A stretch of 43,317 nt of DNA from Clostridiales bacterium (GTDB lineage Bacteria > Bacillota > Clostridia > Lachnospirales > Lachnospiraceae): NCBI GenBank assembly GCA_023663185.1, contig JAMPHY010000023.1, forward strand, positions 1-43,317. Direction: 5' to 3'. Shown piece by piece: positions 8,038 through 11,622 of this stretch. The notes beneath the pieces are model-generated. The model searched no databases and was not told where the DNA came from. It saw only the letters and a program-made list of their open reading frames with translations. The position numbers were made by a program, and so were the translations under genes. Every line of letters begins with the position of its first letter. Position 1 is the first letter of the stretch.

Positions 8038-8961
8038 TCAACTGTTTTCTTGTAAGCTTTTAAGACGCCTGTCGGCATTCCATACCATGTATATTGCTAT
8101 AATGATTACGCCGGAGCATACTGCCGTACTTGTAATCATGTTCATGAGTTTGCGAAAAGAATCGTCACCTCCGAATTGTGCAATCATGGAAGTCTGTAAT
8201 GCCAGTACGGACATTAATGCGCCCGCAAAAGTCAATGCCTTTGACGCGGAAAGCACAGGGCTTTTTAACTTACGGAACTTAACCATGTTTATAACAGCCA
8301 TGATTGTAATATAAAATGTATAGGCGGCTGATAAATAAATTATATAACCGGGATAAGTAAAGTGCATATTGTCGCGTACCATCAAAACCGCCATTCCCGA
8401 CATGCCCCCTGTCAACAGGAACATCAAGAGCCCGCACATACGGTAACTTTTATATTCCTGTATGCTGCGCATATGGAGATTGTCAGTCTTGCTTGTCCCG
8501 CGCACGCTATGAGCAAGCAGCCCGCGAAACACGCAGAGCATGAAATAATAAACCGCAATTACGCCAAACCAGACAGACGAATAAAGAAAAGCTGTAATTC
8601 CACGAAAGAGTGCATATAACAGGTTCATGCTAAATCCCTGATAAATGGAGATTGTACCGCGGAAGCCCATGTCCTCTAAAAATTGTGTTACAATCGGAAG
8701 TTCCATTGCCTTTTTAACGTGTTTTTGAGTAAAGAATTTCTTTTTTAATGTTCTTACACAGCGCGGGAGGCGGATAACCAGCAGAATAAGCATTGCTGCC
8801 GAAAACGGATATACGGTGTATGCTAATGGAGTCTCATCAAGTCCGTTGGTAAAAATAACAATAAGAAGCGCCGCAGCAAGTACACACAATCCTGCCATAC
8901 ACAAATTAGACATATGATAAAATTTATTACACAGCTTTTTAAGAAACTGCAAATATACCAC
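8038..8961 (-). CDS. Multi-pass membrane protein, first gene of the two-component operon
   Basis: A 307-residue protein I cannot assign to a named family. It shows about seven hydrophobic segments (about 20-40, 48-63, 112-133, 137-150, 176-195, 205-225, 237-258 and 275-297, some weak) and a soluble loop at about 70-105 (KKKFFTQKHVKKAMELP). It is the promoter-proximal gene, followed 18 nt later by the response regulator. Its position suggests either a target of the system or a signal-input partner for the kinase, which has almost no outside domain. Both are inference. Confidence 0.75.
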   Translation of the reverse strand: MVYLQFLKKLCNKFYHMSNLCMAGLCVLAAALLIVIFTNGLDETPLAYTVYPFSAAMLILLVIRLPRCVRTLKKKFFTQKHVKKAMELPIVTQFLEDMGFRGTISIYQGFSMNLLYALFRGITAFLYSSVWFGVIAVYYFMLCVFRGLLAHSVRGTSKTDNLHMRSIQEYKSYRMCGLLMFLLTGGMSGMAVLMVRDNMHFTYPGYIIYLSAAYTFYITIMAVINMVKFRKLKSPVLSASKALTFAGALMSVLALQTSMIAQFGGDDSFRKLMNMITSTAVCSGVIIIAIYMVWNADRRLKSLQENS

Positions 8962-8986
8962 GCCCCTAAATGCTCAACATATTCAA

Positions 8987-9034
8987 ATTATACCATACAT
9001 TTTAATTGTTTGTGTTTTGTTGGAGTTTTGTTAG
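8987..9034 (-). promoter_or_regulatory. Promoter region of the two-component operon with 11-bp-period direct repeats
   Basis: On the minus strand a TATAAT box lies at 8992-8987. The -35 region is poor, but just upstream of it the plus strand reads GTTTTGTT at 9014-9021 and again at 9025-9032, exactly 11 bp apart. OmpR/PhoB-type regulators bind such direct repeats next to weak -35 boxes. I infer positive autoregulation by the operon's own response regulator. Confidence 0.6.
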
Positions 9035-9089
9035 AGAATTGTTAATTGCAAGACAGGTATCGAAAGCTGTAAGAACGCGCAAAATTCGT

Positions 9090-9118
9090 TTGACAACATG
9101 GAAGTCTTTCTGTACAAT
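9090..9118 (+). promoter_or_regulatory. Promoter of larC leader transcript
   Basis: TTGACA at 9090-9095, a 17-bp spacer and TACAAT at 9113-9118, with an extended TG just before the -10 box. Transcription should start near 9125, giving a leader of about 220 nt before the larC ATG. Confidence 0.85.
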
Positions 9119-9124
9119 AAAACT

Positions 9125-9343
9125 GAACCACTGAAACCGCAGATGCGATGTAGGTGGTGTTTCCGTAAAAACAGTGCGTAAGAAGCGGCTGGAAATGCAG
9201 AAGCATTTTGTTATTCAGACTCGGATTTTCATTTTATATGTATGCCATGAAGGTATGCGGTTTCCTCATAGGGAGATTGCATGCTTTTTTATTACAAAAA
9301 TGAAAATTTAAGTATAGCAATACTATCCATGAAGGAGGCAGAC
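9125..9343 (+). ncRNA. Candidate riboswitch/attenuator leader of larC
   Basis: The leader holds an intrinsic terminator and an exclusive alternative fold. The terminator stem pairs 9253-9265 with 9272-9284 (13 pairs including four G-U), has a 6-nt loop and is followed at once by T6 (9285-9290). Its 5' arm can instead pair perfectly over 9 bp with the start of the transcript: GAAACCGCA (9133-9141) with TGCGGTTTC (9256-9264). That long-range helix encloses about 114 nt with a local hairpin, AAATGC-AGAA-GCATTT (9193-9208), as expected of a multibranched aptamer. Forming it would block the terminator, so the predicted logic is ON upon ligand binding. I do not recognise any known class (NiCo, cobalamin, T-box and Moco motifs were not found). 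Given larC, a nickel-, lactate- or cofactor-related signal is possible but is only a guess. Confidence 0.65.
9253..9290 (+). terminator. Conditional intrinsic terminator in the larC leader
   Basis: A 13-pair stem (9253-9265 with 9272-9284, four of the pairs G-U), loop TCATAG, then six T residues at 9285-9290. It ends 53 nt before the larC start. No gene stops just upstream, so it is positioned to control larC and not to end another transcript. Confidence 0.8.
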
Positions 9344-10594
9344 ATGAGAACATTATATTTAGACTGCGGCATGGGCGCGGCGGGCGATATGCTTAGTGCG
9401 GCGCTCATAGAACTTTTACCGGAGCCCGACGCTTTTATTGAAGAGATAAATGCGCTTGGGATTCCGGACATTCAGATAAAAAAAGAATCGGCCGTTAAAT
9501 GTGGAATTACGGGCACGCATATTTCCGTCAGGGTAAATGGTGAGGAAGAAGACGAGGAGATGCACGAGCATAATCATCATGAGCATGAGAGCCACGAGCA
9601 TAATCATCATGAACATGAGAACCATGACCATAACCATCATGAGCACGACCACCACCATCATCACAGCGGAATGCACGATATCGAAGACATTGTAGCAAAT
9701 CTGCATATATCAGAAAATGTTAAGAACAACGTCTTCTCCGTATATCGTCTAATTGCAGACGCTGAAAGCCATGTCCACGGCGTACCCGTCACGGAAATAC
9801 ATTTTCATGAGGTCGGTACAAAAGACGCCATTGTCGATATTGTAACAGTATGTATGTTGATGGATAAATTGTCTCCCGATGAAGTTGTCGTTTCGCCTGT
9901 TCATGTAGGAAGCGGACATGTGAAATGCGCCCACGGCATTCTGCCTGTTCCTGCGCCTGCCACAGCTTTTATTCTGAAAGACGTACCTATTTATAGCGGA
10001 GGGATTAAAGGCGAACTGTGTACGCCGACAGGTGCAGCCCTGCTTAAACATTTTGCGACACGCTTCGGAGATATGCCTATGATGAAAGTACAGTCGGTTG
10101 GTTATGGCATGGGTAAAAAGGACTTTTCAGCCGCTAACTGTGTCAGGGCAATGCTCGGTGAATGTGAAGGCGTTGAGAATACCGTCCTTGAACTTTCATG
10201 CAATGTCGATGATATGACGGCGGAAGAGGTCGGCTTTGCAATGGAGCGTTTGTTTGAAGGCGGAGCGCATGAAGTTTATACAATACCTATCGGCATGAAA
10301 AAATCCCGCCTCGGCACATTGATTCGCGTAATCTGTACGGAAGAAAATAAAGAGCAAATAATTGCTCTGATATTCAAGCATACAACAACAATCGGCATAC
10401 GCGAAACCGCAACAAAGCGTTATGTTTTGGACAGGCAGATAGAAACATTGGATACTCCGTATGGCAAAGTCAGGCGAAAAGATTCGTCAGGCTATGGGAT
10501 TACCCATTCAAAATATGAATATGAAGACCTTTCTAAGATTGCAAAAGAAAGGAAAATCAGCCTTAAAGAAGCGCGCAAGCTGATTGAGGAATAA
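9344..10594 (+). CDS. larC: LarC, nickel insertion protein for the lactate racemase pincer cofactor
   Basis: A 416-residue protein of the LarC (DUF111) family, which inserts nickel into the pyridinium thiocarboxylate pincer cofactor of lactate racemase-like enzymes in a CTP-dependent reaction. The family start MRTLYLDCGMGAAGDML, the motif VTEIHFHEVGTKDAIVDIV and the C-terminal CNVDDMTAEEVGFAMERL are present. The start at 9344 follows AAGGAGG by 5 nt; an upstream in-frame ATG at 9281 lies inside the leader terminator and is rejected. Residues about 72-106 form a very His-rich stretch, probably a nickel store. In Lactobacillus larC is split by a programmed frameshift; here it is one continuous frame. 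No larA, larB or larE lies nearby, so partners must be elsewhere. Confidence 0.95.
   Translation: MRTLYLDCGMGAAGDMLSAALIELLPEPDAFIEEINALGIPDIQIKKESAVKCGITGTHISVRVNGEEEDEEMHEHNHHEHESHEHNHHEHENHDHNHHEHDHHHHHSGMHDIEDIVANLHISENVKNNVFSVYRLIADAESHVHGVPVTEIHFHEVGTKDAIVDIVTVCMLMDKLSPDEVVVSPVHVGSGHVKCAHGILPVPAPATAFILKDVPIYSGGIKGELCTPTGAALLKHFATRFGDMPMMKVQSVGYGMGKKDFSAANCVRAMLGECEGVENTVLELSCNVDDMTAEEVGFAMERLFEGGAHEVYTIPIGMKKSRLGTLIRVICTEENKEQIIALIFKHTTTIGIRETATKRYVLDRQIETLDTPYGKVRRKDSSGYGITHSKYEYEDLSKIAKERKISLKEARKLIEE
9566..9655 (+). repeat. Three 30-bp tandem repeats encoding the LarC histidine-rich segment
   Basis: Three in-frame 30-bp units (9566-9595, 9596-9625, 9626-9655) encode EHNHHEHESH, EHNHHEHENH and DHNHHEHDHH, followed by HHHHSG. 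The repeat number could change by slippage without breaking the frame, which would tune metal-binding capacity. Confidence 0.9.
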
Positions 10595-10984: not shown

Positions 10985-11215
10985 ATGATGACAGCAAAAG
11001 TATTTGAAAATGGCAGAAGCCAAGCAGTTAGACTGCCAAAAGAATATCGGTTTAATGATGAGGAAGTGGCTATAAACAAAATAGGAGATATTGTCATATT
11101 AATGCCGAAAGAAAACAAATGGTCCGGATTTTTAAACAGTCTGAATCTTTTTTCAGAGGATTTCATGAAAGATGGACGTGGGGAGTCTGTGGAGCAGGAG
11201 CGAGAGTCTCTATGA
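10985..11215 (+). CDS. vapB: VapB-type AbrB/MazE-fold antitoxin
   Basis: A 76-residue antitoxin. The N-terminal half (about 1-47) is the swapped-hairpin AbrB DNA-binding domain with VFENGRSQAVRLPKEYRF, the signature of VapB antitoxins. The C-terminal half should wrap around the toxin. GGGAGGTG stands 8-13 nt before two adjacent ATG codons (10985 and 10988), either of which could start it. The stop overlaps the vapC start as ATGA. Confidence 0.92.
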   Translation: MMTAKVFENGRSQAVRLPKEYRFNDEEVAINKIGDIVILMPKENKWSGFLNSLNLFSEDFMKDGRGESVEQERESL

Positions 11216-11622
11216 AGTATATGTTAGATACAAACATCTGCATTTATGCTATTAAGCATAAACCGGATACTGTGATTAGAGAATTTCTTTCGCATGATCC
11301 AGAAGAACTGTGCATTTCGGCAATTACTTATGCAGAATTGATGCATGGTGTTGAGAAGAGCATGGCAGTAGAGAAAAATCGTATTGCAATGTCTTTGTTC
11401 CTCTCTCCAATCACTGTTTTGCAATTTGACGAACTGGCTGCCGAAGAATATGGGAGAATCAAGGCAGAACTTGAAAAGAAAGGTACGCCGATCGGTCCGA
11501 TGGACACATTGATAGCGAGTCACGCCAAGTCAAGAGGGCTTATTATCGTGACGAACAACACAAGAGAATTTAACCGTGTGGCTGGTTTAACAGTAGAAGA
11601 TTGGACGCAAGAGCAAAGATAA
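11212..11622 (+). CDS. vapC: VapC PIN-domain ribonuclease toxin
   Basis: A 136-residue PIN-domain toxin. The catalytic acidic set is visible: D6 in MLDTNICIYAIK, E42 in TYAELMHG and D98 in GPMDTLIASHAKSRG, followed by IVTNNTREFNRV. VapC enzymes of this subgroup usually cleave tRNA. The start overlaps the vapB stop by 4 nt. A longer frame opens upstream at 11119, but it lies inside vapB and lacks family similarity, so it is not used. Confidence 0.94.
   Translation: MKYMLDTNICIYAIKHKPDTVIREFLSHDPEELCISAITYAELMHGVEKSMAVEKNRIAMSLFLSPITVLQFDELAAEEYGRIKAELEKKGTPIGPMDTLIASHAKSRGLIIVTNNTREFNRVAGLTVEDWTQEQR

Follow-up and report, generated by a model that had tools for sequence, protein, structure and literature searches.

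What controls the transcription of larC, which encodes a nickel insertion protein, was the question raised by a 43,317-nt stretch of DNA from a Clostridiales bacterium of the family Lachnospiraceae, the full length of which is called the window here. The initial annotation had proposed that the leader of this gene is a riboswitch or attenuator, turned on when the 5' end of the transcript pairs with the left arm of a terminator. The features found in this region were as follows.

9090-9118, + strand: promoter TTGACA-17-TACAAT, 11 of 12 matches; part of the 41-nt RNA unit; top-scoring promoter-like site of the + strand between 8400 and 10800
9124-9164, + strand: copy of a 41-nt structured RNA (R1, 59.6 bits, E 5e-16), own U-tract eroded (TTTCCG)
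9133-9141, + strand: 5' arm of the initially proposed pairing, within the 41-nt RNA and complementary to 9256-9264; not conserved
9173-9190, + strand: P1 hairpin, loop AAGAA, from the fold and alignment with 18 other P1 hairpins; weakened, with one bulged G (-2.2 kcal/mol)
9192-9209, + strand: P2 hairpin, 7 bp, loop AGAA, from alignment and fold
9240-9258, + strand: P3, the putative antiterminator hairpin, 7 bp, loop ATGAA (R2, 57.0 bits, E 5.3e-13); its 3' arm starts the terminator's left arm
9253-9290, + strand: intrinsic terminator, stem 9253-9265/9272-9284 followed by T6, from pair counts over 37 leaders
9332-9338, + strand: ribosome site AAGGAGG of larC, from the sequence
9344-10594, + strand: larC (PF01969, E 6.5e-139, over positions 1-373 of 375)

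Two fused units upstream of larC

All of the features named in the initial annotation were confirmed to be present in the window. The strong promoter was there, the terminator hairpin (9253-9284, then T6 at 9285-9290) was found both in the sequence and in the minimum-energy fold, and 9133-9141 (GAAACCGCA) is, as letters, a perfect 9-bp complement of 9256-9264 (TGCGGTTTC). The terminator hairpin was missing from the list produced by a simple terminator scan. The claim that no known riboswitch signature is present also held, the Rfam search of the window yielding no family at gathering score and, at E <= 10, three chance-level matches that were far below their gathering scores. The fold of the leader from 9119 to 9343 had a z of -4.57, and one of 200 shuffles was equally good. 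The region is nonetheless not a single element: it fuses a leader part (9165-9290) to a separate unit (9090-9164), and the 5' end of the transcript, which had been assigned to the switch, belongs to that separate RNA unit and lies outside the leader family. LarC itself carries a long His-rich stretch, encoded at about 9561-9668 of the window, that is possibly metal-binding. Directly downstream of larC (10985-11622) are a MazE/AbrB-like protein, with a score just under the Pfam cut-off, and a PIN-domain protein, which form a probable toxin-antitoxin pair.

The 41-nt RNA and its DUF3800 partner

The segment from 9108 to 9165 was found in other genomes, both of relatives and of the genus, and never before larC. 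A pattern scan of genome contigs gave 98 homologous loci; among those listed, 80 of the 98, were members of the Lachnospiraceae, Bacteroidetes, Chloroflexi, Spirochaetes, Omnitrophota, Atribacteria, Microgenomates and others. The 36-nt core of the RNA corresponds to 9124-9159 in the window. Since the pattern fixed the outer strands and left the inner stem free, the invariance of the outer strands is by construction; in a weaker viral-contig match, the outermost pair changed from A-U to U-A. The inner stem covaried: it was paired in 93.8% of cells across 73 distinct rows and provided all 68 both-side changes, compared to 11.9 in shuffles, none of 500 of which was as high. The counts of pairs and of pair types were unremarkable, being reached by 392 and 97 of the 500 shuffles, respectively. 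RNAalifold returned the same structure. In 88 of the 98 homologs the -10 element ends exactly 5 nt ahead of the core, as it does in the window, and a promoter score of at least 9 of 12 was obtained for 84 of the 98 homologs versus 6 of 490 random positions. The promoter is thus a component of the 41-nt RNA unit. At least five T residues lie within 6 nt after the core in 81 of the 98 homologs, compared to three in the window.

Most of these loci share a protein-coding neighbor. A DUF3800 gene lies convergent to the RNA and within 1.5 kb past it in 78 of the 98 loci, as measured by tblastn, the other 20 being orphans, fragments and contig edges. All 51 aligned partners matched PF12686, and their invariant acidic residues are D9, E10, D13, E61, D146, D185 and D201. 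The AlphaFold2 model of the partner had a pLDDT of 92, and RNase HII (2dff) was its only Foldseek match at E <= 0.001 (E 6.5e-4), with TM-scores of only 0.35 to 0.42. This match of the predicted structure agrees with the RNase H fold that the available text of PMC10910872 describes for DUF3800. In 398 genomes of the phylum, each of the four full-length partners (over 360 bits) adjoins a 41-nt RNA, and in one further genome a partner gene with internal stops lies 1.8 kb from one. Three distant DUF3800 proteins (107 to 126 bits) had no adjoining match to the RNA in this search, the filters of which lose weak matches. The RNA itself was found in 10 of the 398 genomes, 5 of which have no partner gene (that of the window included, and one of the matches being weak). 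On viral contigs, four of five DUF3800 loci carry the RNA at the 3' end of the gene, one of them weakly (23.8 bits); at the fifth, the sequence stops with the gene. No DUF3800 gene lies beside the window copy, and the three DUF3800 genes of its genome are on other contigs.

In another genome, a DUF3800 gene has been cut in frame to 34 codons (L003, 1548-1652), about the first 15 and the last 17 to 19 residues, with the adjacent 41-nt RNA and promoter kept. In two others (L161 and L162), the promoter of a DUF3800-VII RNA is immediately preceded by a decayed 41-nt RNA, an arrangement that looks as if one RNA had replaced the other. The Rfam family DUF3800-VII resembles the 41-nt RNA in being convergent to the 3' end of a DUF3800 gene, in the same place, in four genus mates; it differs in length, its model having 90 positions versus 41 nt. 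From the DUF3800-I, -VII and -IX RNAs of Rfam the 41-nt RNA further differs in matching no Rfam family and, for the window copy, in having no DUF3800 partner. Eighteen of the 98 loci were scanned and had no family at gathering score at the RNA, and at E <= 10 the window copy and two others (L005 and L057) gave chance-level matches only. A 2017 survey reportedly named eleven DUF3800 motifs, and the 41-nt RNA may be among those that Rfam did not adopt. Among the titles and abstract beginnings listed in literature searches on DUF3800, AbiF, nickel, attenuation, lactate racemase and antiterminators, neither this RNA nor the larC leader was described. A plasmid search gave no match, a phage collection gave one unannotated record, and the pattern scan of viral contigs gave none. 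PADLOC recognized 4 of the 51 DUF3800 proteins, weakly. Raw counts over the 83 neighborhoods scanned included type I restriction specificity genes in 10 and integrases in 7, which, as counts with no background control behind them, are suggestive of defence or mobile islands.

A conserved leader before lar and transport genes

The 5' unit was the only part matched when 61 relatives were searched with 281 bases, and the only part in common when the 350 nt just before larC were compared. When 9160-9343 alone was searched against the genus, 41 of 77 genomes had matches at E <= 0.1, mostly short and weak, and in several genomes the best lay 1 to 1.7 kb upstream of larC, so the view that the larC leader is not conserved was dropped. 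Among 30 larC loci examined, 25 have larC directly after larB, the exceptions being five loci that include the window; because larB mostly lies in between, searching immediately before larC had failed. We fetched 40 upstream regions from the genus, 39 upstream of larC genes and one of an ECF gene. An iterated profile search found the leader in 36 of these and in the window, and none in the other four (L204, L213, L215 and L216). The gene after the leader in the genus is mostly larE-like, larB-like or that of a protein with the signature MACF..VPAAEAV. Two other origins were considered for the leader and rejected: as a remnant of LarB, it gave no LarB match at E <= 1, and as a remnant of DUF3800, a tblastn search of 8961-9343 gave chance-level matches only (best E 0.08).

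The leader consists of hairpins P1 and P2, with A(N)GAA and AGAA loops, then P3, mostly with an ANGAA loop, and the terminator. The 3' arm of P3 starts the left arm of the terminator, making the two mutually exclusive by sequence. In the 37 leaders, P3 was paired in 98.8% of cells, with 17 both-side changes compared to 4.7 in shuffled alignments, and the terminator in 89.4% of cells, with 56 compared to 20.1; three terminator pairs were unpaired in 10 to 14 of the 37 rows. P1 and P2 were aligned in 19 of the 37 leaders, taken from 24 with a recognized hairpin pair, and were paired in 95.1% and 95.6% of cells, figures favored by a choice of hairpins that required stems. They had 31 and 32 both-side changes, compared to 8.8 and 10.1 in shuffles. 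All four helices covary, and for each of them none of 500 shuffles reached the observed cells paired, both-side cells or covariation score. Of the five covariation measures, the remaining two (the number of pairs that change on both sides and the number of further pair types) stood out less, with many shuffles as high (for example, 59 and 271 of 500 for P3, 34 and 330 of 500 for P2).

The loops were compared in a way that is free of the stem selection used for P1 and P2. AGAA ranked first among the 256 tetraloop words in the 37 leaders, with 24 occurrences compared to 4 for the next, and AGGAA and ACGAA ranked first among the 1,024 pentaloop words, with 16 and 6 compared to 2. Upstream of P3, 32 of the 37 leaders contain a total of 48 hairpins of at least 5 bp with A(N)GAA or AGAA loops, compared to a shuffled mean of 0.66 and maximum of 4. 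The loops are mostly closed by a C-G pair and are nearly invariant while the stems vary. Hairpin number and spacing are not fixed: P2 and P3 are 30 to 128 nt apart in the 21 leaders with a recognizable P1-P2 pair (L199, L206 and L214 omitted), P3 stands alone after the promoter in L221, and L201 has about six hairpins. No Rfam match was found around the leaders in the 40 sources scanned, three of which (L204, L213 and L215) have no leader and some of which overlap. By homology, 9165-9290 is part of a conserved leader that is not in Rfam. The initial description of an attenuator before larC was therefore partly supported, being correct in kind: a conserved leader with no Rfam match, in which a terminator is set against an alternative hairpin, stands, and the 5' pairing proposed for it does not.

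The leader extends beyond the genus. A model of P3 plus the terminator (R2) was used to search 299 genomes of the family and found 31 places in 30 genomes and 29 genera. All 16 places at E <= 5e-5 precede lar, transporter or lar-linked genes, with seven genes named by profile scan and nine from their N-termini by likeness to the scanned ones. They are larB or larB-like (three), larE-like (one), larC (one, in the window), the MACF..VPAAEAV membrane protein (four), an ECF S component (four), SBP_bac_5 (two) and Peripla_BP_2 (one). The 15 weaker places had E values from 6.7e-4 to 0.0096; 5 precede FecCD, SBP_bac_5, CbiM, LarE or a truncated LarE-like start, and the 10 with no lar or transport-type gene are probably false matches. 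In all, the leader is supported at 21 of the 31 places, in 19 genera. P1- and P2-like hairpins, which were outside the search model, were present in 16 of 28 matches from other genera (21 hairpins, compared to a shuffled mean of 0.55 and maximum of 4). Whole operons follow single leaders: larB-CbiM-CbiQ-ATPase (L274), larE-larB-larC-SBP_bac_5 (L267), SBP_bac_5-permeases-ATPase with a larB-like gene further down (L272), CbiM-CbiQ (L269), and SBP_bac_5 with permeases and ATPases (L268), in which the ATPases, the second permeases, the first larE and the larB of L272 were identified by reading only. The window genome has a second, fuller copy of the leader (66.7 bits) before an ECF S component, and therefore the regulator is probably present there.

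Several members of this regulon are not proven nickel proteins, and their transport substrates are putative. CbiM is named for cobalt, and FecCD and Peripla_BP_2 proteins are usual for iron or B12. The SBP_bac_5 proteins under the leader scored below the NikA cut-offs, and the ECF S component matched general ECF families, with the folate-family model below its cut-off. In four genera (L236, L240, L247 and L249) an ECF S component with an M-H-I/L-P-V motif follows the leader, L236 having been scanned and the others identified by reading; this S component is a candidate transporter of nickel or of a cofactor precursor. A MACF(L/I)VPAAEAV-like protein is found under the leader in L237, L239, L242, L246, L275 and L277, followed in the last two by a second small membrane protein. 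A Pfam scan assigned no family to the L237 protein or to the second protein of L275, and the two proteins are a candidate nickel-handling pair.

Probable antitermination and its alternatives

We consider it probable that 9165-9290 is a protein-read antitermination switch of a nickel regulon, in which P3 competes with the terminator and which, in the window, has a hybrid promoter end. As the leader is transcribed, the small hairpins P1 and P2 and then P3 would form. Unaided, the longer terminator would displace P3, and transcription would stop before larC. A hairpin-binding factor, most likely a loop-recognizing RNA-binding protein, would hold P3 and allow the polymerase to read through. A shortage of nickel or of the nickel-pincer cofactor is the most likely signal, because the leader precedes nickel-type importers and lar genes, which would be expressed under that shortage. 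In folds of the growing transcript, P3 was part of the best structure until about 9280, after which the terminator was ahead by 6.6 kcal/mol (-50.6 compared to -44.0 kcal/mol), and therefore P3 has to be held in place by something for read-through to occur, as in ANTAR systems. P1, P2 and P3 share one small loop, and the number of such hairpins and the distances between them vary; this suggests a protein whose binding unit is a single hairpin.

The switch of the initial annotation, in which 9133-9141 pairs with 9256-9264 to free larC, has in its favor the perfect 9-bp complement and a stability equal to that of P3 while the transcript ends at 9264 to 9272. When homologous leaders were collected, however, this helix was seen in no other leader examined: upstream of P3, no perfect complement of the left arm of the terminator exceeded 7 nt in the 36 other leaders, and no matching 9-nt complement occurs within 250 nt downstream of the 41-nt RNA in any of the 98 homologs of the 5' element. 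When forced, the pairing folded at -37.7 kcal/mol, which is 12.9 kcal/mol less stable than the terminator fold. Dinucleotide shuffles produced a perfect 9-bp match at some place in the leader in 7% of cases, and in 0.7% when only the downstream part was shuffled and compared with the 5' element; the leader exceeds chance because it is conserved, not because of this match. The pairing was rejected as the antiterminator on the grounds of non-conservation and fold energy, and we find such a switch barely credible. Direct binding of a nickel ion, the nickel-pincer nucleotide or a pyridine nucleotide by the hairpins, as in a multi-hairpin riboswitch, would suit both the nearly invariant loops on varying stems and a regulon of this kind, for which a metal or cofactor signal is apt. 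Each hairpin nevertheless offers only 4 or 5 loop bases, no conserved junction was seen, and a range from P3 alone in L221 to about six hairpins in L201, with spacing as variable, is unusual for an aptamer with one pocket; repeated, nearly identical loops fit a bound protein better than direct ligand binding, and we regard a riboswitch as unlikely. That the protein is an ANTAR-domain protein reading an ANTAR-type target is very unlikely. The logic of tandem hairpins, the last overlapping the terminator stem, is shared (PMC8934654, in its available part), but the same text describes ANTAR targets as dual hexaloops, the first loop base being A and the fourth G, whose spacing is strongly limited. 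In the lar leader the loop-closing pair changes from C-G to U-A in some rows (two each), which makes these loops of 4 and 5 bases rather than hexaloops, and the P2-P3 distance ranges from 30 to 128 nt.

Compatible with a real switch elsewhere is the idea that the window copy is a decayed relic at a locus losing its function, which we think rather unlikely. Its different promoter end, taken from a DUF3800-type RNA unit, its lone larC, its weak P1 and the lost U-tract of the small RNA are all consistent with decay, as is the failure to find LarB over the curated cut-off in the 95%-complete window genome, given which this larC may lie outside a working lar pathway. P2, P3, the terminator, the ribosome site and a full-length larC are nevertheless intact. 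No 41-nt unit was found at E <= 1 in 41 other regions, the 40 upstream regions and the contig of the second copy. The simplest account, we infer, is that the 41-nt unit and its promoter came to lie directly before the leader and replaced its native promoter end, that the inserted unit lost its own U-tract, and that the genes between the leader and larC were lost. The stop signal of the orphan small RNA has decayed, and therefore the promoter at 9090 now probably drives the larC leader, which as a hybrid may still be functional.

The leader may also be given a broader interpretation, which we offer tentatively: that the Lachnospiraceae have an undescribed nickel-sensing RNA control based on repeated A(N)GAA hairpins. 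These would either be receptors for nickel or the nickel-pincer cofactor themselves or be the target of a nickel-dependent antiterminator protein of a new class. In the window genome, this control would have been rewired to a promoter that belongs to an RNA partner, likewise undescribed and found across phyla, of an RNase H-like DUF3800 nuclease. In the available text of a 2009 survey, NikR was present in fewer than half of the organisms with NikABCDE (PMC2667541). Across 19 genera of a single family, a shared leader code that precedes lar and nickel-type transport genes offers a directly testable answer to how nickel is controlled without NikR. It also provides a handle on the missing regulator and singles out the ECF S component and the MACF..VPAAEAV pair as candidates for new nickel-handling proteins. 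The DUF3800 family, itself poorly understood, gains in the 41-nt RNA a partner that is compact and strongly conserved.

Three known systems invite comparison. Antiterminators of the RAT/LicT type can switch by a single hairpin that overlaps the terminator. L221, in which P3 stands alone, resembles them in this layout; the lar leader differs in its small apical loop motif and in the extra upstream hairpins of the same kind in most leaders. The nickel/cobalt (NiCo, czcD) riboswitch is likewise a metal-linked leader RNA, whereas the lar leader has no Rfam match or visible junction and precedes import and cofactor genes. The third system is that of the ANTAR leaders of the eut genes of Enterococcus faecalis, which, in the text available, also have tandem hairpins before an intrinsic terminator and a last hairpin that shares bases with the terminator stem. 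Compared to these, the lar leader has A(N)GAA loops of 4 to 5 bases in place of A1/G4 hexaloops, its hairpins vary in number and spacing, and the genes that it precedes are nickel and lar genes.
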